Below, one piece after another: positions 18,518 through 40,302 of a DNA stretch of 64,000 bases. Source of the stretch: an uncultured Dehalococcoidia bacterium (GTDB taxonomy: Bacteria > Chloroflexota > Dehalococcoidia > Lucifugimonadales > UBA3495); contig OY282494.1 of assembly GCA_958296385.1 (NCBI GenBank), forward strand, positions 95,416 to 159,415, written 5' to 3'. Each line of letters begins with the position of its first letter. The first letter of the stretch is position 1. Position numbers and translations under genes: made by a program. The notes under the pieces are model-generated. The model was not told the origin of the DNA. It ran no database searches and worked only from the letters and a program-made list of their open reading frames with translations.

Positions 18518-19048
18518 TTACCCCCAAACACACAACGAGGGGGTCTGGGGGAAATCATTTCCCCCAGCGTCACCCCCCAAATCCCAAAATCAGCGACACT
18601 CCCCCTATTGCCAAACGGCACACCCGTTCGCCATAATACATCCATCGGGCAATCAACCAACCCCCGGCCTCCAGCCGTTCCCGGCCAGGAACGTCCCCTG
18701 GGGAACCGGAGCACCACACCGCTAGCACCATCGTCGGAGATTCAAGTCAAAAACGGCCAGTCAGCAAAATCGCAATCGGCAAGGGTAGTCCCGACCCCGC
18801 TTTCACGGCGCGGGCTGCCTCCGCAGGGTATCGAGCTTCAGCCCGCGTGCTGCCTCTCATTAGGGCAGGACACGTAAAATGAAGGTCCAAAATAGTTGCG
18901 TACCCACCTCCGGCCGTAGGGCTGACAACGACTTGAATCTCCGACACCAAACCAAACCAACCGAACCCACCGCCCGATACCGATAGCCCGATACCAGCCA
19001 ACCGCAAACTCGCTCCCACAGGATGAACGATTATGACTTGACCCAAAC
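18518..19048 (+). repeat. Intergenic repeat family, copy A (full length)
   Basis: About 530 bp filling the gap between the phosphohexomutase start and metK. Parts in order: a palindrome at 18546-18566 (arms TGGGGGAAAT and ATTTCCCCCA around one base); a linker; a core at 18733-18945 bounded by the perfect 16-base inverted repeat GTCGGAGATTCAAGTC; and an outer part rich in ACCAAACC and CCGCCCGATA blocks. A stretch of nearly 70 bases (from CTCCGCAGGGTATCGAGC through CACGTAAAATGAAGGTCC) is identical to copy D. No convincing gene. Confidence 0.88.
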
Positions 19049-19120
19049 CCCCCTGAATAGATAAGAGCCGGCGCCGGCGTTTACGCCGGCCCGGCTCGTA
19101 GCGTAGCCTTGCTGGTAGTT

Positions 19121-20362
19121 CTAGTTGCCGGTAGCCGTGGCCATCGCCCCGGCCGACTGCTTCAGCGCGTCGGCTTTGTCGGTGCGTTCCCAGGGCAAGT
19201 CCAGGTCGTTGCGCCCGAAGTGGCCGTAAGCGGCCGTCTTGCCGTAGATTGGCCGGCGCATATTCAGGTCTTCGATGATTGCGCCGGGCCGCAAGTCAAA
19301 GTGCTCCAGCACCAGCTCCTCGATGCGCTCGTTGGGCAGGTGGTTCGTGTCAAAGGTCTCCACCGATACGGAGATTGGCTCCGCAACCCCGATGGCGTAG
19401 GAAACGATAACCTCCACCCGGTCCGCCAGCCCGGCCGCAACCAGATTCTTTGCCACGTAGCGCGCCGCGTAAGCCCCGGAACGGTCAACTTTCGTCGGGT
19501 CTTTCCCGGAGAACGCTCCGCCCCCGTGCCGGGCAATCCCGCCGTAGGTGTCAACCAGAATCTTGCGCCCGGTCAGCCCCGTGTCCCCCTGCGGCCCGCC
19601 CACGACGAACCACCCGCTGGGGTTCACGTAGTATTTCGTCTCATCGTCCAGCAGGTGCGCCGGCACTATCGGAATGATGACGTTCTCGATAATGTCCCGG
19701 CGAATCCGCTCCGTAAATGCCGCCCGGTCCGCCTGGTCTTCGTGCTGCGTGCTGATTACCACGGCATCCACACGATGCGGCTGCCCGTAGCGATACTCCA
19801 CGGTAACCTGCGATTTGCCGTCCGGCCCCAGGTAAGGCAGCGTGCCATCCTTCCGCACCGCCGACAGCCGCTCCACCAGCCGGTGCGACAGGTCAACCGT
19901 CAGCGGCATCAGCCCGTCGGTTTCGTTGCAGGCAAACCCCACCATCATTCCCTGATCGCCCGCGCCGGTGGCCCGCCGGGCGTCCGCCGCCCCGTCGCCC
20001 CGGTGCTCCAGCGAAACCGATACGCCGCTGCTGATGTCCGGCGACTGCCGGCTCACGTGGGCAATCACGCCGCAGGACGTGCCGTCAATACCGTACTTCA
20101 CGTCGGTGTACCCGATTTCCTGCATCACCCGCCGGGCAATGTCGTCAAAGTTCAGCTCCGACGCGGTGGTTATCTCGCCGGTCACCATCACCAGATTTTT
20201 CGTAGCCACCGTTTCGCAGGCCACCCGGCTCATCGGGTCGCCGCCCAGCGCGGCATCCAGCACCGCATCGGAAATCTGGTCACACAGCTTGTCGGGGTGC
20301 CCTTCGGTTACCGACTCGGACGTGAGCAGGTACTTGGGCGATGTCATAAACTGGATTGGCAT
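19121..20362 (-). CDS. metK: S-adenosylmethionine synthetase
   Basis: 413 residues. Makes SAM from ATP and methionine. Motifs: [18 protein letters not shown] near the N-terminus, [16 protein letters not shown], and [20 protein letters not shown] in the phosphate-binding loop. GGAGG lies about 9 bases before ATG 20362; an internal ATG five codons on is less well placed. Last gene of the minus-strand SAM block, downstream of ahcY, with repeat copy A after its stop. Confidence 0.97.
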
Positions 20363-20482: not shown

Positions 20483-21877
<1,395 letters not shown>

Positions 21878-22260: not shown

Positions 22261-23133
22261 TCAGTCCAGATACTTGCCGGCGATGGGATTAAGCCGCCGG
22301 CGCGCTTCGTCGGATATATGACTTCGGTTAGTGATGATGGCGTTGGCCAGCGCCGAATGGCACGCGCACTCCCCCAATTCCGCCAGCGTCGGCACGATGT
22401 GGCGCAGGATGATGCGGCTGTTCGCTACGTTGGCGATGAGATTCTCCACCACCATATCCACCGTTACGGCGTCGTGGTCCGGATGCCAGCAGTCGTAGTC
22501 GGTAACCCACGCCATCGTGCCGTAGCACATCTCCGCCTCCCGCGCCAGCTTGGCCTCCGGCAGCGCGGTCATCCCAATCAGGTCGCCGCCCCAGGCGCGG
22601 TACATCTCCGATTCGGCCTTCGTGGAGAACGCCGGCCCCTCCATCACCACCAGCGTACCCCCGCTGTGCGTCGGTATCCCCTGCCCGTCGCCGCCCTCGG
22701 CGATGACCTTGCTCACGCCGGCGCAGAACGGCTCGGCAAAGCTGATGTGCGCTACTACGCCGCCATCAAAAAAGGTGCTGTCCCGAAACCGCGTCCGGTC
22801 GATCAGCTGGTCGGGAACCACCAGATGCTGCGGCGCAAAGCGCGCCTGCAAACTGCCCACCGCGCTCACCGACACAATCCGCCTGATGCCCAGCGTTTTC
22901 AGAGCGTAAATGTTGGCCCGGAACGGCAGCTCGGTAGGGCTGACCCGATGCCCCAGGCCGTGCCGGGGCAAAAACGCCACCGGCACCCCCAGCAAATCGC
23001 CAACCGTAATGTAGTCGCTAGGCTTGCCGTAAGGCGTGTCAATATCCAGCACCGCCGACTCAGTGAACCCCTGTATCTCGTACAGGCCGCTGCCGCCGAT
23101 AATGGCTATATCCGCTTGAGGATGGTAAGGCAT
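22261..23133 (-). CDS. mtnP: 5'-methylthioadenosine phosphorylase
   Basis: 290 residues. Cleaves methylthioadenosine to adenine and methylthioribose-1-phosphate, the substrate of MtnA encoded upstream. Family segments: ADIAIIGGSGLYEI, FLPRHGLGHRVSPTELPFRA, SVSAVGSL, and VVMEGPAFSTKAESEMYRAW. The catalytic-site Asp appears in WVTDYDCWHPDHDAVTVD. Sequence is typical of the MTAP rather than the purine nucleoside phosphorylase branch, supported by mtnA in the same block. Confidence 0.94.
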   Translation of the reverse strand: MPYHPQADIAIIGGSGLYEIQGFTESAVLDIDTPYGKPSDYITVGDLLGVPVAFLPRHGLGHRVSPTELPFRANIYALKTLGIRRIVSVSAVGSLQARFAPQHLVVPDQLIDRTRFRDSTFFDGGVVAHISFAEPFCAGVSKVIAEGGDGQGIPTHSGGTLVVMEGPAFSTKAESEMYRAWGGDLIGMTALPEAKLAREAEMCYGTMAWVTDYDCWHPDHDAVTVDMVVENLIANVANSRIILRHIVPTLAELGECACHSALANAIITNRSHISDEARRRLNPIAGKYLD

Positions 23134-23190: not shown

Positions 23191-23817
23191 TCACCCCGGC
23201 CAGATGATACCGGCGATGGCGCCAAGCCAGAGCAGTACGCCGATGATGATAAGCACAATTTCGCCCTTGCCGAAACGGGCGGATTGGCTCAGCCGGCTGT
23301 CCACGTCAGCCCAATAACGGTTCAGGTTTGACTGCATCCGGCAGAGAATACCGATGGTAACGATCAGGCTGATGATGCTGATAACAACGCCGGCCAGAAC
23401 CATCCCGCTGCTGTCCGAGCTGGGATCCCGCATACCGCCGCCGATGAGTAGCGCCACCGTGTTGATGACCACGATAGTAGTCAGCGTCCCCAGATTCAGA
23501 CTGTCGGCAACGCCCCGCTCCTGCATCAGCCCCTTGTAGTGCCGGATGTGCGCGTGATAGCGAAAGAACGCGTAAATCGGCACAAATTGCGTCAGCGCGT
23601 GCCAGACCGGGTAGTGCCTTTCGCCGGTTTCCGCGCGCTGTTCCGCCGTGTGATCCCGGTACTGTTTCCAGGTACGGTACATCCAATAGAACCAGTACAG
23701 GCCCATACTCACGACGGACAGCAGGATGATGCGGGTCGTCGAAATATAAGCGCCGCCGGCCAAATCGCCGGTGTGCGGGTTCTCCGCCCCGTAGCCGTCG
23801 GGTTGCCAGGTTGCCAT
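23191..23817 (-). CDS. Membrane protein of unknown function (DUF4234-like)
   Basis: 208 residues from ATG 23817, preceded by GAGG at suitable spacing; a GTG at 23838 is less likely. Four hydrophobic stretches: about 28-45, 110-130, 140-160 and 185-205. The motif GLYWFYWMYRTWKQYRDHT followed by a Pro/Trp/His-rich segment recalls DUF4234-type proteins. Lies between the arylsulfotransferase-like gene (18 bp) and mtnP (57 bp). Function not known. Confidence 0.7.
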   Translation of the reverse strand: MATWQPDGYGAENPHTGDLAGGAYISTTRIILLSVVSMGLYWFYWMYRTWKQYRDHTAEQRAETGERHYPVWHALTQFVPIYAFFRYHAHIRHYKGLMQERGVADSLNLGTLTTIVVINTVALLIGGGMRDPSSDSSGMVLAGVVISIISLIVTIGILCRMQSNLNRYWADVDSRLSQSARFGKGEIVLIIIGVLLWLGAIAGIIWPG

Positions 23818-23834: not shown

Positions 23835-25022
23835 TCACCGCAGCTGCGGTATCGCGTCAGGCAGGTAATGGGTTGAGCGGAACACGCTGTTAACAACGTA
23901 ACCTTGCTCATTCGGCGCAAAGTGCGGGTTCACGTACTCCCAAACCACCGCCCCGTCCGGCGTAACCTGAAAGATGCGCCCAAAATGCCCCTCGGTAATC
24001 AGCGTGTTCCCGTTGGGCAGCCGCCGCGCGCCGGAGATGTAGGCGCTGAAAAAGTTGAAAGGCGGGTTATCCCGGTACTGCCAGACGATTTCGCCGCTGG
24101 CCGGGTTCACCTCAATAACGCGGGAATGGGGCAGCGGTTCGTTCCGGCTGTGCGACCCGTTGTCGTAAATCAGCACGTTCCCGTTGTCCAGCAGCGACGG
24201 GTCATGCTGCTGCGCCAGCACGTCATCCCCCAGTTTCCAAACGATTTCGCCGCTGGCCTGGTCAATAATTCCCACCGTTGAGATATTGCGAAAGCTGAAC
24301 ATAACCCGCCCGCCGGGCAGCGGAACGACGGTGTTGCCGTGGCTCCATTCATCCCGCCGGTCATTAAAGGTAATGATGTCGGTGGCCGTATCCAAATGTT
24401 CCGCCGCGCGCCACTCCCAGATGCGGTTGCCGTCGGCGTCAATCTCAACCAGCACGTCGCTCCACATACCGGAATCGCTGCCGCCCGAATCGCTGCCCCC
24501 GGAACTGCTGCCCCCGGAACTGCTGATATTGGATCGCCCCCCCTGCACCCGGGCCGCCTGCGCGTCGTCCATCCGCTCCACCGTCATATACAGGCAGCCC
24601 CCCGATTCGGTGCGCCGCGCGTCGTGATGGTGGTAAGCGTCGCGATGCTCCCAAAGGATGTTGCCGTGCCAGTCAGCCTCCAGCATCACGCCGCCCTTGA
24701 ACCGCTTGAACCCCTCAAAAATCTCCCACGCGCCGTCATCTCTAACCTTGCCGCCGTAAAACAGGTTGCCGTTGGGCAGCAGATACCCGTAAAGGCCCGG
24801 CGGGTAAGGCATCTGCCAAGTGTGGGCCACGTCGCCGTTGCCGTCCAGCAGATAAACTTCGCCATCGCCGGACATCGGGGCAAACAGCGTATAGCCGGGG
24901 CAGGCCCGCTCCGGGTCGCAAGCGGTAAGCCCAACGCGCCCCATCCGCCGCCGCGTTTGGGCGTCAATAGATTGGGCGTCAATAGATTGACCGTCAATAG
25001 CAGTGTTCGTCATAGCGTTCAC
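23835..25022 (-). CDS. Arylsulfotransferase (ASST)-like beta-propeller protein
   Basis: 395 residues. Repeated segments GxxVWEYxxP, GEIVWKLGDD, GEIVWQYRDN and LPNGNxLxxE are typical of the arylsulfotransferase family beta-propeller (PF05935/PF14269). Catalytic-type histidines occur in HHHDARR and DEWSHGNTVVPLPGG. The N-terminus has a repeated SIDAQ element, and residues 165-185 are a Gly/Ser spacer. No signal peptide is visible, unlike periplasmic ASST. Its place in the SAM block, 24 bp after mtnA, is unexplained. Substrate unknown. Confidence 0.75.
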   Translation of the reverse strand: MNAMTNTAIDGQSIDAQSIDAQTRRRMGRVGLTACDPERACPGYTLFAPMSGDGEVYLLDGNGDVAHTWQMPYPPGLYGYLLPNGNLFYGGKVRDDGAWEIFEGFKRFKGGVMLEADWHGNILWEHRDAYHHHDARRTESGGCLYMTVERMDDAQAARVQGGRSNISSSGGSSSGGSDSGGSDSGMWSDVLVEIDADGNRIWEWRAAEHLDTATDIITFNDRRDEWSHGNTVVPLPGGRVMFSFRNISTVGIIDQASGEIVWKLGDDVLAQQHDPSLLDNGNVLIYDNGSHSRNEPLPHSRVIEVNPASGEIVWQYRDNPPFNFFSAYISGARRLPNGNTLITEGHFGRIFQVTPDGAVVWEYVNPHFAPNEQGYVVNSVFRSTHYLPDAIPQLR

Positions 25023-25045: not shown

Positions 25046-26113
25046 TCAGGCCGCGTCCACGGCCCGCCGCAGTGATTCAGCGTAAGGCGGCCGGCACACC
25101 GCCGCCTCAGTGACGATGCCGGTAATGTAGCGATTGGGGGTTACGTCAAAAGCGGGATTGTAAGCCGCCGTGCCGTCCGGAGCGGTCGGCGCGCTGCCGT
25201 AGGTCGTTACCTCGTGCGCCGGCCGTTCCTCTATCTTGATTCCGGCGCCGTCGGCAAGCGACAGGTCAACGGTGCTGGTGGGTGCGGCGATGTAAAAAGG
25301 AATACCGTTCTCGTTGGCCAGCACCGCCAGCGCGTAGGTGCCGATTTTGTTCGCCGTGTCCCCGTTGGCGGCAATCCGGTCAGCCCCGGTAATGACGCAC
25401 GACACGTCCCCGTTGAGCATCATCATCCCGGCGGCGGAGTCGGCGATCAGCGTCGCCGGTATCCCCAGCTGCTGAAACTCCCACGACGTAAGCCGCGCGC
25501 CTTGCAGCCACGGGCGCGTTTCGGTATTGAACACCCGGAACCGCCCGCCGGCCTCCCAGCCGGCCCGTATGACGCCCAGCGCAGTGCCAAAAGCCGACGT
25601 TGCCAGCGCGCCGGTGTTGCAATGCGTCAACACCCCCTGCCCATCGGCCGGCATCAAAGCGCGCCCCTGCTCCCCGATGCGCCGGTTGATAGCCTCATCC
25701 TCCTGCTGGATACGCTGCGCCTCGGCCTCCAGCGCCGGCAGGATGCTGCCCGGGTCCGGTTCAGCCTCCGCCACCCGCAGCATCCGCCGCACCGCCCAAC
25801 CCAGATTGACCGCCGTAGGACGAGCGGCGGCGATGTACTCCCCGGCCTGCCGCAAAGAACCGATAAACTGGTCCCGTTCCCGCGATTGCAGCTCTGCCGC
25901 CGCCAGCGCCATAGCGTAGCCGGCAGTGACGCCAATGGCCGGCGCCCCCCGCACGCGCATCTCGGTAATAGCATCGGCGGCAACGCGGTAATCGGTAATG
26001 CTGACCGTAACCTGCTCGTGGGGCAAGCGCGTTTGGTCCAGCAGCTCCAGCCGCCAGCCCGTCCAGCGGATCGGGCGTATTTCGTTCGTATTAGTGGGGC
26101 GCATTTCGTTCAT
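25046..26113 (-). CDS. mtnA: Methylthioribose-1-phosphate isomerase
   Basis: 355 residues. Converts methylthioribose-1-phosphate to methylthioribulose-1-phosphate in methionine salvage. Catalytic cysteine in LTHCNTGALAT and aspartate in ITGADRIAANGDTANKIGTY; substrate loop MRVRGAPAIGVTAGYAMALA and ETRPWLQGARLTSWE are typical. First gene after the SAM-I riboswitch. The later salvage enzymes (mtnB, mtnC, mtnD) are not in the window, so the pathway may be completed elsewhere or be a shortened version. Confidence 0.95.
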   Translation of the reverse strand: MNEMRPTNTNEIRPIRWTGWRLELLDQTRLPHEQVTVSITDYRVAADAITEMRVRGAPAIGVTAGYAMALAAAELQSRERDQFIGSLRQAGEYIAAARPTAVNLGWAVRRMLRVAEAEPDPGSILPALEAEAQRIQQEDEAINRRIGEQGRALMPADGQGVLTHCNTGALATSAFGTALGVIRAGWEAGGRFRVFNTETRPWLQGARLTSWEFQQLGIPATLIADSAAGMMMLNGDVSCVITGADRIAANGDTANKIGTYALAVLANENGIPFYIAAPTSTVDLSLADGAGIKIEERPAHEVTTYGSAPTAPDGTAAYNPAFDVTPNRYITGIVTEAAVCRPPYAESLRRAVDAA

Positions 26114-26213
26114 AATCGGCAGCGTGTTCGCAAAAGGTCAGTGTTCAATGATGGCGCGGATTCCGGCCCGCGCCGGTTCCGGATGCGCGCACCGGCGGGT
26201 TTCCGAAACGGGC

Positions 26214-26245
26214 AAAAATAAAGGCTCACCAAAACAGGGAGAGCC
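26214..26245 (-). terminator. Riboswitch-controlled intrinsic terminator
   Basis: Minus strand: GGCTCTCC and GGTGAGCC form a stem with one mismatch (26223-26245), followed by TTTATTTTT. It lies 17 bases after the riboswitch P1 and about 100 bases before mtnA, the expected place for a SAM-dependent off switch. Confidence 0.85.
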
Positions 26246-26261
26246 CAGCAAGACAATCCTC

Positions 26262-26405
26262 CCCTCATCTTTCGTCGCACTGCAACAAGCGTATCGCAAC
26301 GCATCGCACGGCAACGACGCCGGATTTAGCACCTGATTCCACCGGGAAAGCAGAATTGGTTGCCAGGCTTCACAGGGCCGGTCCCTCCGCCTGTCTGAAT
26401 AAGGG
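26262..26405 (-). promoter_or_regulatory. SAM-I riboswitch (S box) upstream of mtnA
   Basis: Minus strand reads P1 CCCTTATT, then CAGACAGGCGGAGGGACCGG and CCCTGTGAAGCCTGGCAACC, the nearly invariant S-box core, then GGTGCTAAATCC and AAAGATGAGGG closing P1. All conserved blocks of SAM-I occur in canonical order: kink-turn region, pseudoknot partner and P3/P4 junction. SAM binding is known to favour the downstream terminator. It would therefore shut off mtnA and probably the following SAM-cycle genes when SAM is abundant. Confidence 0.95.
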
Positions 26406-26564
26406 TTCCAGAATGTATCCAATTTTTAACGATTTCCATCCTACCCGCACCAACCCAATATGTCAAGACAGCCACCCGCCGCACGATTCCGTAACCCCAC
26501 ATCTCCCCACCGTCATTCTGCACTGCGCCCAGAATCCCGACGCCGTAGTAGTGCCCTTGCCCCA

Positions 26565-27095
26565 AGGATACGCAGGGGGTCTGGGGGAAATCATTTCCCC
26601 CAGCGGCCCTCCCCAAATCCCCAAAATCAGCGACCCCAACCTCTTGCAACCGCACATCGGTTCGTGTAAGATACATCTATCGGGCAAATCAACCAACCAA
26701 TCCCCGCCTCAGCTGTTCTCCACCGAGAGCGTCCCCTGAGGCACCGGGGCCTACACACTATCACAACACCGCATCAAACGTCGCCGGAGATTCCAGTCAC
26801 CACGGCCACCCCCGTCAGCATCCAAACCGCAATCGGCCAGGCCGACCCATCGACGCATCCACGGCGTGGGCGGTACTCCGCAGGGTATCGAGCTTCAGCC
26901 CGCGCGCTGTCCCCCCAAAGGACAGGACACGTAAAATGAAGGTCCGTAATAGTTGCGTAAAAACCTTCCGGCCGTAAGGGCTGACACCGACTGGAATCTC
27001 CGACAACAACCACCAAACCAACCAAACAACCCAACCCAAACCCACCGCCCGATAGCCAATCGCCCGATTACCACACCCGCCCGATACCAGCTAAC
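26565..27095 (+). repeat. Intergenic repeat family, copy B
   Basis: About 530 bp in the same orientation as copy A. Palindrome at 26582-26602. Core bounded by CGGAGATTCCAGTC (26785-26798) and GACTGGAATCTCCG (26989-27002). Relative to copies A, C and D one base differs in the left arm and the complementary base differs in the right arm, so the inverted repeat is preserved. Contains the shared GGTATCGAGCTTCAGCCCGC and CACGTAAAATGAAGGTCC blocks. Confidence 0.88.
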
Positions 27096-32721: not shown

Positions 32722-33504
32722 TTATTCCGATTGGCGGTACAGCCGCTCCCGCAGCCGTGCGATTTCAGCCTCGGCAGCCAAACGCTCGGCCCTTTCGGCG
32801 TCCCACCTTGCTTCGGCGGCTTGCTGGGCAGCCTCGGCAGTCTGCCGGGCAGCCCGTTCCTGCCGCCAGTTTTCGTGGTAGGTTGCCGTTGCCGGGTCGT
32901 ACAGCCGGGGCCAGCCGTCGTCCCAGCACAAGCTCAGCCCCAAAACCGCGCTGTACCCTTTCAGTACGCCGTCCGGTTCGGTAGTCAAATCTATAGATTG
33001 GTAAGCGCCGTTGACCAGCCGGCCGCCCCACAGCCGTTCTTGGTAGTAGCGGCCGCCGGGGTCAAAGCGCCAGTATTCGGGAATGCCGATGCGGGCGTAG
33101 ATGTCGGGCTTGCGGCGAATGTCCACTTGGGCGGTGCTTTCCGAGGCCACTTCCAGGGCGAAATCCGGCGGCTTGCCGACTTCCCAGGGCAGGTACAGTT
33201 TGCGGGGGCGGATGGCGCGGGCGTCAACGCCGAAAGCGAGGTAGATGTCCGGCGAAACGCGGACGTTCAAGTTGGCGTGGTCATAGCAGATAAACGTTTG
33301 GTCATCCAAAAACACATCAGGCCGGCGGTCGAAATCAGTGAACGCGACGGCGAACAGGCCGGTTAGTTCTCGTATTTCACGACTTTGTTCCATCTGGTCC
33401 GGCGGTAGCTCCTTTACGTCAGGGGCAAATTCCAGGCAGGCGTAGTCAATCTCACCTTGCCGCTGGTAAGGCAGCATCTTGGGCGTGGTGGCGCGGGTGG
33501 TCAT
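32722..33504 (-). CDS. Uma2 family nuclease-like protein, copy 1
   Basis: 260 residues. Uma2 (DUF820) proteins have a PD-(D/E)XK-like fold. Likely active-site residues: Asp86 in RVSPDIYLAFG, Glu118 in FALEVASEST and Lys132 in RRKPDIYARIGIPEYWRFDP. Residues 205-260 are an Ala/Glu/Arg-rich coiled coil (AEARWDAERAERLAAEAEIA). DNA substrate and role are unknown; the family is common in cyanobacteria and Chloroflexota. Third in transcription order of a tandem set with 12-bp gaps. GGAGG precedes ATG 33504. Confidence 0.88.
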   Translation of the reverse strand: MTTRATTPKMLPYQRQGEIDYACLEFAPDVKELPPDQMEQSREIRELTGLFAVAFTDFDRRPDVFLDDQTFICYDHANLNVRVSPDIYLAFGVDARAIRPRKLYLPWEVGKPPDFALEVASESTAQVDIRRKPDIYARIGIPEYWRFDPGGRYYQERLWGGRLVNGAYQSIDLTTEPDGVLKGYSAVLGLSLCWDDGWPRLYDPATATYHENWRQERAARQTAEAAQQAAEARWDAERAERLAAEAEIARLRERLYRQSE

Positions 33505-33516
33505 TGATGGCCTCCG

Positions 33517-34320
33517 TTATTCCGATTGGCGGTGCAGTTGCTCCCGCAGCCGTGTGATTTCGGCCTCAGCAGCCAGACGCTCGGCCCTTTCGGCGTCCCA
33601 CCCGGCCCGGGCTGCATCCCGCTCCGCCAAGACGTTATCCCGCTGCGATTCGGCGGTTTGCCGGGCGGCGCGTTCCTGCCGCCAGTTCTCATAGTAGGTT
33701 CCCGTTGCCGGGTCGTACAGCCGGGGCCAGCCATCGTCCCAGCACAGGCTCAGCCCCAGAACTACGCTGTACCCTTTCAGTACGCCGTCCGGTTCGGTAG
33801 TCAAATCTATAGATTGGTAAGCTCCATTGACCAGCCGGCCGCCCCACAGCCGTTCTTGGTAGTAGCGACCGCCGGGGTCAAAGCGCCAGTATTCGGAGAT
33901 GCCGATGTAGGCGTAGATGTTGGGCTTGCGGCGGATGTCCACCTGGGCGGTGCTTTCGGAGGCCACTTCCAAGGCGAAATCCGGCGGCTTGCCGACTTCC
34001 CAGGGCAGGTACAGCTTGCGGGGGCGGATGGCGCGGGCGTCCACACCGAAAGCTAGGTAGATGTCCGGCGATACCCGGACGTTCAAGTTGGCGGGGTCGT
34101 AACAGATAAACGTTTGGTCATCCAAAAACACGTCAGGCCTGCGGTCGAAATCGGTGAAGGCGGCCGCGAACAGTCCGGCTATTTCTCGTATTTCACGACT
34201 TTGTTCCATCTGGTCGGGCGGTAGCTCCTTTACGTCGGGGGCAAATTCCAGGCTGGCATAATCAATCTCGCCTTGCCGCTGGTAGGGCAGCATCTTGGGC
34301 GTGGTGGCGCGGGTGGTCAT
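33517..34320 (-). CDS. Uma2 family nuclease-like protein, copy 2
   Basis: 267 residues, nearly identical to copies 1 and 3 through the catalytic domain, with the same Asp/Glu/Lys set (SPDIYLAFG, LEVASEST, RRKPNIYAYIG). Differs mainly in the coiled-coil tail, where an extra block around QRDNVLAERDAARAGWDA lengthens it relative to copy 3. High nucleotide identity among copies points to recent duplication or gene conversion. Cotranscribed with its neighbours. Confidence 0.88.
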   Translation of the reverse strand: MTTRATTPKMLPYQRQGEIDYASLEFAPDVKELPPDQMEQSREIREIAGLFAAAFTDFDRRPDVFLDDQTFICYDPANLNVRVSPDIYLAFGVDARAIRPRKLYLPWEVGKPPDFALEVASESTAQVDIRRKPNIYAYIGISEYWRFDPGGRYYQERLWGGRLVNGAYQSIDLTTEPDGVLKGYSVVLGLSLCWDDGWPRLYDPATGTYYENWRQERAARQTAESQRDNVLAERDAARAGWDAERAERLAAEAEITRLREQLHRQSE

Positions 34321-34332
34321 TGATGGCCTCCG

Positions 34333-35094
34333 TTATTCCGATTGGCGGTGCAGTTGCTCCCGCAGCCGGGCGATTTCGGCTTCGGCAGCCAGACGCTCGG
34401 CCCTTTCCGCATCCCGCTGCGATTCGGCGGTTTGGCGGGCAGCCCGTTCCTGCCGCCAGTTCTCATGGTAGGTTCCCGTTGCCGGGTCGTACAGCCGGGG
34501 CCAGCCGTCGTCCCAGCACAGGCTCAATCCTAGAACCGCGCTGTACCCTTTCAGTACGCCGTCCGGTTCGGTGGTCAAATCGATGGACTGGTAAGCTCCA
34601 TTGACCAGCCGGCCGCCCCACAGCCGTTCCCGGTAGTAGCGACCGCCGGGGTCAAAGCGCCAGTATTCGGGGATGCCGATGCGGGCGTAGATGTCGGGCT
34701 TGCGGCGGATGTCCACTTGGGCGGTGCTTTCGGAGGCCACTTCCAGGGCGAAATCCGGCGGCTTGCCGACTTCCCAGGGCAGGTACAGTTTGCGGGGGCG
34801 GATGGCGCGGGCGTCGACTCCGAAGGCCAGGTAGATGTCGGGCGACACGCGGACGTTCAAGTTGCCGGGGTCGTAGCAGATAAACGTTTGGTCGTCCAAA
34901 AACACATCAGGCCGGCGGCCGAAGTCGGTGAACGCGGCGGCGAGCAGGGCGGCTATTTCTCGTATTTCACGACTTTGTTCCATCTGGTCCGGCGGCAGCT
35001 CCTTTACGTCAGGGGCAAAATCCAGGCGGGCGTAGTCAATTTCGCCTTGCCGCTGGTAGGGCAGCATCTTGGGCGTGGTGGCGCGGGTGGTCAT
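34333..35094 (-). CDS. Uma2 family nuclease-like protein, copy 3 (promoter-proximal)
   Basis: 253 residues from ATG 35094, the start equivalent to the other copies and preceded by GGAGG; an upstream GTG-side start at 35115 is not supported. Same catalytic set as copies 1 and 2 (SPDIYLAFG, LEVASEST, RRKPDIYARIG). It has the shortest coiled-coil tail, so the tails differ by insertion or loss of a repeat block while the nuclease domain is kept nearly constant. First gene after an extended -10 promoter, divergent from the acyl-CoA dehydrogenase gene. Confidence 0.87.
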   Translation of the reverse strand: MTTRATTPKMLPYQRQGEIDYARLDFAPDVKELPPDQMEQSREIREIAALLAAAFTDFGRRPDVFLDDQTFICYDPGNLNVRVSPDIYLAFGVDARAIRPRKLYLPWEVGKPPDFALEVASESTAQVDIRRKPDIYARIGIPEYWRFDPGGRYYRERLWGGRLVNGAYQSIDLTTEPDGVLKGYSAVLGLSLCWDDGWPRLYDPATGTYHENWRQERAARQTAESQRDAERAERLAAEAEIARLREQLHRQSE

Positions 35095-35139
35095 CTTGGC
35101 CTCCGGGCAGCGCACGGTTGCGGCGGCTATTGTGTTGCG

Positions 35140-39765: not shown

Positions 39766-40302
39766 GTGGTTTGGTCAAGTCATGATAAGTCATCCTGTGG
39801 GAATGGGTTTGCGGTTGGATGGTATCGGGCTATCGGTATCGGGCGGTGGGTTTGGTTGGTTTGATGTTGTTGTCGGAGATTCAAGTCGTTGTCAGCCCTA
39901 CGGCCGGAGGTGGGTACGCAACTATTTTGGACCTTCATTTTACGTGTCCTACCTTTTTAGGGGCTGCACGCGGGCTGAAGCTCGATACCCAGCGGAGGCA
40001 GCCCACGCCGTGTAAGCGGGGATGGGACTACCCTTGCCGATTGCGATTTTTGCTGACTGGCCGTTTTGACTTGAATCTCCGACGATGGTTGATGCGGTGT
40101 CCCCGATTCCCAGGTGCGCCCTCTATATGAGAAACGGCTGGTAGCGGGGTTGGTTGATTTGCCCGATGGATGTATCTTACACGAACGGGTGTACCGTTTG
40201 GCAATAGGGGGGGTGTCGCTGATTTTGGGGATTTGGGGGGTGACGCTGGGGGAAATGATTTCCCCCAGACCCCCTCGTTGTGTGTTTGGGGGGAAGGGGG
40301 TG
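39766..40302 (-). repeat. Intergenic repeat family, copy C (inverted)
   Basis: Full-length copy in opposite orientation to A, B and D. Core bounded by GTCGGAGATTCAAGTC (39872-39887) and GACTTGAATCTCCGAC (40068-40083). Palindrome at 40247-40267. Outer end includes GTCAAGTCATGATAAGTCAT, matching the far end of copy A. It fills the gap between the GlcG-like gene and the PHA operon; a one-base shift in its longest open frame relative to A, B and D argues against coding. Confidence 0.88.

Follow-up and report, generated by a model that had tools for sequence, protein, structure and literature searches.

The locus analyzed here raises the question of whether one SAM-I riboswitch in front of mtnA controls a whole block of seven genes, down to metK, and of what such a block would do with methylthioadenosine (MTA). 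The window, that is, the whole stretch of 64,000 nucleotides that was analyzed, belongs to a Dehalococcoidia (Chloroflexota) genome assembled as a single contig of 3,298,084 bases (99.95% complete, contamination 4.77). A sequence-only reading of the window had placed a complete S-box with its terminator at 26216-26405, before mtnA, and had proposed a covariance-model search for SAM-I. This search bore out the assignment, as RF00162 matched over its full length, scoring 71.5 bits where the gathering threshold is 44.4 (E 9.8e-15), and the same aptamer was the sole SAM-I match of the 3.3-Mb genome. Because the aptamer runs from 26405 to 26262 and the terminator hairpin, which is followed by a T-rich tail, from 26246 to 26222, the span given earlier corresponds to aptamer plus terminator on the minus strand (Table 1). 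The leader shares with SAM-I riboswitches (RF00162) the full-length aptamer, the position before SAM-metabolism genes and the terminator 3′ of the aptamer that is expected of a SAM-I expression platform. It differs from them in having an aptamer with a long insertion close to its 3′ end, in being present as a single copy in the genome, and in heading metK, ahcY and MTA salvage genes together with a rhodanese gene.

Table 1. Features of the leader and of the gene block. Positions refer to the window unless a locus is named.
Feature	Position	Strand	Evidence or remark
Sigma-70-type promoter TTGACA-17-TAGGAT	26438..26466	-	Promoter scan; ends 32 nt before aptamer
SAM-I (S-box) riboswitch aptamer	26262..26405	-	RF00162 match, model 1-108; long insertion near 3′ end
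Intrinsic terminator	26213..26246	-	Hairpin 26246-26222, T-rich tail 26221-26213
mtnA, methylthioribose-1-phosphate isomerase	25046..26113	-	TIGR00512, 421 bits, cut-off 279
Arylsulfotransferase-like beta-propeller protein	23835..25010	-	PF05935, 77 bits; GTG start at 25022 possible too
DUF4234-like membrane protein	23191..23817	-	PF14018, 24.2 bits, slightly below cut-off of 25.3
mtnP, methylthioadenosine phosphorylase	22261..23133	-	TIGR01694, 312 bits, cut-off 275
Single-domain rhodanese, FICAAGVRS loop	21878..22237	-	PF00581
ahcY, S-adenosylhomocysteine hydrolase	20483..21754	-	TIGR00936, 616 bits
metK, methionine adenosyltransferase	19121..20362	-	TIGR01034, 551 bits
Strong hairpin with weak T tail after metK	19064..19101	-	Stem 19092-19065; -31.5 kcal/mol
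PfkB-like kinase	L082 2366-3340 after aptamer (G040)		Also G036, G044, G058, G049, G057, L232, L230 (last two: translations read)
S-box-less leaders upstream of mtnA	L251, L253 (G025, G035); L250, L252 (G024, G034)		

By analogy with its class, the leader would bind SAM and switch expression off. We propose that the riboswitch attenuates one transcript, on which mtnA, the genes for the arylsulfotransferase-like and membrane proteins (neither of them constant among the relatives), mtnP, the rhodanese gene, ahcY and metK follow one another on the same strand. When SAM is plentiful, the aptamer would fold, the terminator would form and the operon would be off; under SAM shortage, RNA polymerase would read through, and MetK, AhcY, MtnP and MtnA would be made. 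An attenuator of the SAM-I type acting on the entire mtnA-to-metK operon is the best explanation that we can offer for the locus, and we consider it highly probable; the cleavage of methylthioribulose-1-phosphate discussed below is a weaker part of it. Such an arrangement would place SAM synthesis, recycling of S-adenosylhomocysteine (SAH) and disposal of MTA under one SAM-sensing attenuator, recurrent across an order of Chloroflexota.

To compare the locus with its relatives, we used a sample of 60 genomes (our own and 59 relatives), 39 of which had a SAM-I match; the search filters may have missed weaker ones. The resulting 39 loci, namely the window and 38 relatives, were scored for gene presence at a blast score of at least 60 bits. 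A promoter with at least 9 of 12 matching positions was found no more than 90 nt before the aptamer in 39/39 loci, compared with 10/780 random 90-nt control stretches from the same loci. A terminator 3′ of the aptamer was likewise reported in 39/39 loci by a first scan, run without a control, in which the hairpins of G014, G017 and G029 were not simply an obvious stem of the GCTTCTC/GAGAAGC type. A second, controlled scan recovered the terminator in 38/39 loci, missing that of G008, against 66/780 controls. An antiterminator duplex of -6 kcal/mol or lower was present in 29 of the 34 loci that the script could parse (our own locus was among the five left unparsed), and at the median locus 34/100 shuffles gave an equally good one. 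The leader of the window itself was no more stable than its shuffles (z -0.73).

Much of the gene content behind the leader was conserved in these loci. The mtnA gene was present in 38 of the 39 S-box loci and mtnP and the rhodanese gene in all 39, while ahcY and metK were found in every locus whose contig reached so far (35/35 and 34/34, four and five contigs, respectively, ending earlier). The arylsulfotransferase-like gene occurred in 18/39 loci and a homologue of the membrane protein in 8/39. The arrangement goes beyond chance, since 38 other genomes share this leader and this gene order. The same gene block lies on OY282456.1, from an uncultured Dehalococcoidia bacterium, whose MtnA is 86% identical to that of the window. 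Among the 21 genomes of the sample without SAM-I, mtnA was present in 14, and the rhodanese gene was part of the block in 10 of the 13 that were examined, G026 being left out. In G058, the SAM-I leader precedes a 142-residue N-terminal remnant of MtnA (L087, 92-520 after the aptamer), which is directly followed by mtnP, and no mtnA match was detected elsewhere in that genome.

Rhodanese appears as a constant partner of MTA phosphorylase in this Chloroflexota order, and at least 97% of the 39 rows of its alignment have the loop cysteine (FIC..GvRS). The arylsulfotransferase-like protein is less regular. Its predicted model, of moderate confidence (mean pLDDT, 68.5), was closest to the sulfotransferase Cpz4 (9kf4; E 5e-13), and the family score of its sequence (PF05935, 77 bits), combined with this propeller fold match, leads us to assign it to the ASST family. 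The histidine of the TEGHFGR motif seen in the window is replaced by glutamine or methionine in many of the 18 arylsulfotransferase-like homologues.

Two enzymes of the block predict how MTA would be handled, as MtnP and MtnA together would convert it into adenine and methylthioribulose-1-phosphate. AhcY would turn SAH into homocysteine, which could be remethylated by MetH, and MetK would make SAM; outside the block, the genome encodes a metH B12 domain. The sequence-only reading had noted that the salvage enzymes acting after MtnA were missing from the block, suggested that the route was shortened or scattered, and proposed a search of the genome for the missing genes or alternatives to them. 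No match to acireductone dioxygenase (MtnD, PF03079) was found at E ≤ 0.001 in any of the congeneric genomes searched (G000-G013, 14 in all with our own). This search gave weak matches in 10/60 genomes, two of them over the cut-off (G043 and G046) and none in this genus; of 14 control genomes, five were positive, including B. subtilis. A RuBisCO-like protein (PF00016) was found in 0/60 genomes. The genome of the window encodes one class II aldolase, which scored 84 bits against the mtnB family TIGR03328 (cut-off, 137) and reached no curated cut-off among the 25 families listed out of 29. The proposed genome search therefore yielded no mtnD and no mtnB above its cut-off, and one class II aldolase. 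The idea that mtnD and an mtnB scoring above its cut-off are scattered through the genome is rejected on these results, and the suggestion of a shortened or scattered route fits them. Judged by gene content, classical MTA salvage is incomplete here.

Among solved structures, the aldolase was closest to 6btd (DrdA), with 118 bits, followed by L-fuculose phosphate aldolase, with 105 bits, FucA-type enzymes being hard to separate by sequence. The entry 6btd is cited in a paper on 5-deoxyribose salvage, where the substrate of DrdA is given as 5-deoxyribulose-1-phosphate (PMC6079011). An MtnP-type DHAP shunt, serving both the MTA and the 5′-deoxyadenosine routes, is described in another (PMC10986504). 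The genome's own aldolase suggests a shunt of this kind. Because the classical lower salvage is missing and one DrdA-like aldolase is present, the DHAP shunt is the likeliest route: methylthioribulose-1-phosphate would be cleaved by an unlinked class II aldolase resembling DrdA/Ald2, and would not pass through acireductone. Like the described shunt (MtnP or MtnN/MtnK, MtnA, Ald2/DrdA), the predicted one has MtnP and MtnA, both above their cut-offs (TIGR01694 and TIGR00512), lacks the classical lower pathway and has one candidate aldolase resembling DrdA in the genome (PMC6079011, PMC10986504). It differs in that the aldolase gene is not clustered with mtnA. This gene lies about 166 kb from the block (C1:287287-287829; L129 9195-9857), with no mtn gene beside it and among squalene/hopanoid-type genes, with a nucleoside hydrolase-like gene nearby (names read from translations).

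The same evidence bears on what MtnP and MtnA are for. Their substrates could be MTA and, no less, the 5′-deoxyadenosine formed by radical SAM enzymes, in which case the pair would dispose of deoxynucleosides in general and would not salvage methionine. The lack of acireductone dioxygenase matches in the genus and of RuBisCO-like matches in the 60 genomes agrees with this proposal, as do the resemblance of the aldolase to DrdA, an enzyme active on 5-deoxyribulose-1-phosphate (PMC6079011), and the description of the shunt for both substrates (PMC10986504). However, the sequences do not reveal substrate preference, the aldolase gene is not linked to the block, and small aldolases of high score are patchy outside the genus; we regard the proposal as possible but rather unlikely. 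It is also conceivable that the product of MtnA is a dead end, methylthioribulose-1-phosphate being dephosphorylated and exported and adenine recovery being the sole gain. The block and its surroundings contain no lower-pathway gene, and some S-box relatives have no class II aldolase match, for example G016 (89% complete). Against this, a class II aldolase of similar score is present in 13 of the 14 genomes of the genus, our own included, and the single exception, G008, is 86% complete, which makes a dead end unlikely.

Whether all seven genes share the leader depends on what lies between them. The sequence-only reading had seen no clear promoters between the genes; this held for the gaps, where our own scan detected none, but a promoter-like 9/12 match was present at 23273-23246, inside the membrane-protein gene and about 110 nt before mtnP. 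Promoter- and terminator-like matches at the locus of the window were, overall, not clearly more common than in shuffles. Across the relatives, with gene starts taken from the longest reading frames, promoter-like sites within 110 nt before the gene were found in 0/18 loci for the arylsulfotransferase-like gene, 5/39 for mtnP, 3/39 for the rhodanese gene, 1/35 for ahcY and 1/34 for metK. Since the value for mtnP exceeds the control rate (10/780) and the window has its own 9/12 match, a minor internal promoter before mtnP is possible. The terminator scan of the gaps covered those from mtnP to metK. Within the first 160 nt, terminators were absent from the mtnP-rhodanese (0/39), rhodanese-ahcY (0/35) and ahcY-metK (0/34) gaps. 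Genes overlap or almost touch in compact relatives, as in G038, where the gaps before mtnP, the rhodanese gene, ahcY and metK are -41, 9, 22 and -44 nt. After metK, the controlled scan detected a terminator in 10/34 loci, and the hairpin at this position in the window is likely to be the end of the operon.

These data also allow us to weigh a different view, in which the riboswitch governs chiefly mtnA and its near neighbours, and mtnP, ahcY or metK are expressed mostly from weak or atypical promoters of their own. The sites before mtnP speak for it, and so do the gaps in our own genome, 123 nt before ahcY and 120 nt before metK, with their stable folds; as two gaps are about 120 nt long, a diverged internal promoter may be hidden there. 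The rhodanese-ahcY gap also contains an inverted repeat, CGTCATTCCCGC...GCGGGAAT (window 21836-21847 and around), which has four matches in the window with no more than one mismatch, against 0.7 expected. A further argument comes from an Anaerolinea locus, in which a SAM-I/IV riboswitch (L154 14757-14870) stands directly before metK, with mtnA, mtnP, a PfkB-like gene and ahcY just upstream, so that metK can be switched separately within the phylum. By contrast, the near absence of promoter-like sites before ahcY and metK, when every one of the 39 loci has a promoter before the aptamer, the lack of terminators in the three gaps tested, and the short or overlapping gaps of compact relatives all argue against separate promoters, which we consider quite improbable. 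A single putative operon from leader to metK, and with it the earlier suggestion of one switch for the whole block, is supported by the comparison of these loci, that is, by the promoter at the head, the scarcity of internal promoters, the three tested gaps free of terminators and the conserved order. The promoter-like sites before mtnP are its weak point.

In Bacillus subtilis, the MTA recycling genes are controlled by S-boxes, and a SAM-I leader precedes mtnA as it does here. The locus of the window differs from the B. subtilis system in having mtnP in place of a nucleosidase and a kinase, and in that the operon includes ahcY and metK and contains no genes of the mtnB/mtnD type. More broadly, SAM-I was matched in 210 of 301 sampled Chloroflexota genomes, and we inspected 20 further loci. 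In three of these, from the same class (G178, G321 and G341), SAM-I precedes mtnA, mtnP, ahcY and metK. In G338 and in one locus of G144, which belong to other classes, it precedes mtnA, a PfkB-like gene (translation read), ahcY and metK, and no match to mtnP or rhodanese was found at either locus. The metK gene directly follows the switch in 4 of the 20 (G224, G232, G128 and G093), and 11 of the 20 had no match to the proteins of the window. As SAM-I and the gene arrangement are also found in relatives of the class and in other classes, the arrangement is probably old, and the operon of the window is probably a member of it with additions of its own. Various Chloroflexi genes have been placed under SAM riboswitches, those of the window being unnamed in the part of that source on which we draw (PMC3766115).

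Some relatives have a PfkB-like kinase, the closest solved relative of which is the PfkB-family kinase 3kd6. Its gene lies between the rhodanese gene and ahcY in 4/39 S-box loci (among them that of the kinase used as query), all in other families of the order; across other families and classes, it stands before ahcY, with the rhodanese gene (or mtnA) on its other side. Among genomes without an S-box it was found in G049 and G057, between mtnP and ahcY in G046, and as a weak match in G054. Our guess is that the kinase, standing beside AhcY, might clear adenosine.

The switch itself is ordinary, and the parts worth following are the conserved rhodanese and a set of leaders that lack the aptamer. 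In two genera, g12 (G024 and G034) and g13 (G025 and G035), a promoter (by eye) and a terminator hairpin lie upstream of mtnA and the rest of the block, with no RF00162 match. The two g13 leaders agree in 68 of 83 aligned columns and the surrounding sequence looks less alike. With each genus represented by two sequences, these leaders may be either new sensors or decayed ones. The leaders of G024 and G025 had no Rfam match at gathering scores; at E ≤ 10, that of G035 returned nothing and that of G034 four sub-threshold matches. G023 does not belong to this group, as it has a partial S-box (by eye) cut by the end of the contig. Relatives forming a new riboswitch class were sought with a two-sequence model (R1) in 393 genomes of the class and rejected: the three weak matches all fell inside reading frames (of 779, 99 and 169 residues), and none was visibly linked to SAM genes. 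Together with the eroded mtnA of G058, these loci form a natural series: one kind of terminator occurs with the aptamer, without it, or with an eroded first gene. Such a series should be useful for the study of riboswitch loss.

The rhodanese and the aptamer-less leaders could be joined in a bolder reading. The operon would then be a so far undescribed route for recycling the by-products of SAM, with the rhodanese, joined in some genera by the arylsulfotransferase-like protein, acting on the sulfur of MTA or homocysteine; in g12 and g13, a short leader would have replaced the SAM-I aptamer in place, on the same promoter-terminator scaffold. We hold this combination to be very doubtful. Our literature search, outside which lay RegPrecise and subscription papers, so that a prior description is possible, found no paper joining rhodanese, methylthioadenosine phosphorylase and operon, and nothing on Dehalococcoidia with SAM riboswitch; for SAR202 with methylthioadenosine it returned only a seawater metabolite study, judged by its title. 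Attenuation of the whole operon by an ordinary SAM-I leader remains our preferred account of the locus.

Two other features of the window were recorded. On both sides, the operon is flanked by an intergenic repeat about 450-520 nt long (window 18538-18993 and 26574-27068), which is dispersed and occurs again at 39823-40275. The genome contains at least 40 long copies, the query included (40 of 117 candidates scored), the others being 82-94% identical; searches of sister species yielded only short pieces, most of them near repeat positions 330-395 (no more than 18 candidates scored per genome). The notion that the operon travels on a mobile segment bounded by these repeats is rejected, because at least 40 long copies, among the 40 of 117 candidates scored, are spread across the genome and because the operon is conserved in relatives with short repeat pieces or none found among the at most 18 candidates scored per genome. 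Elsewhere, at 32722-35115 on the minus strand, the window contains a tandem array of three closely similar genes (260-267 residues), whose products resemble Uma2-type (DUF820) proteins.
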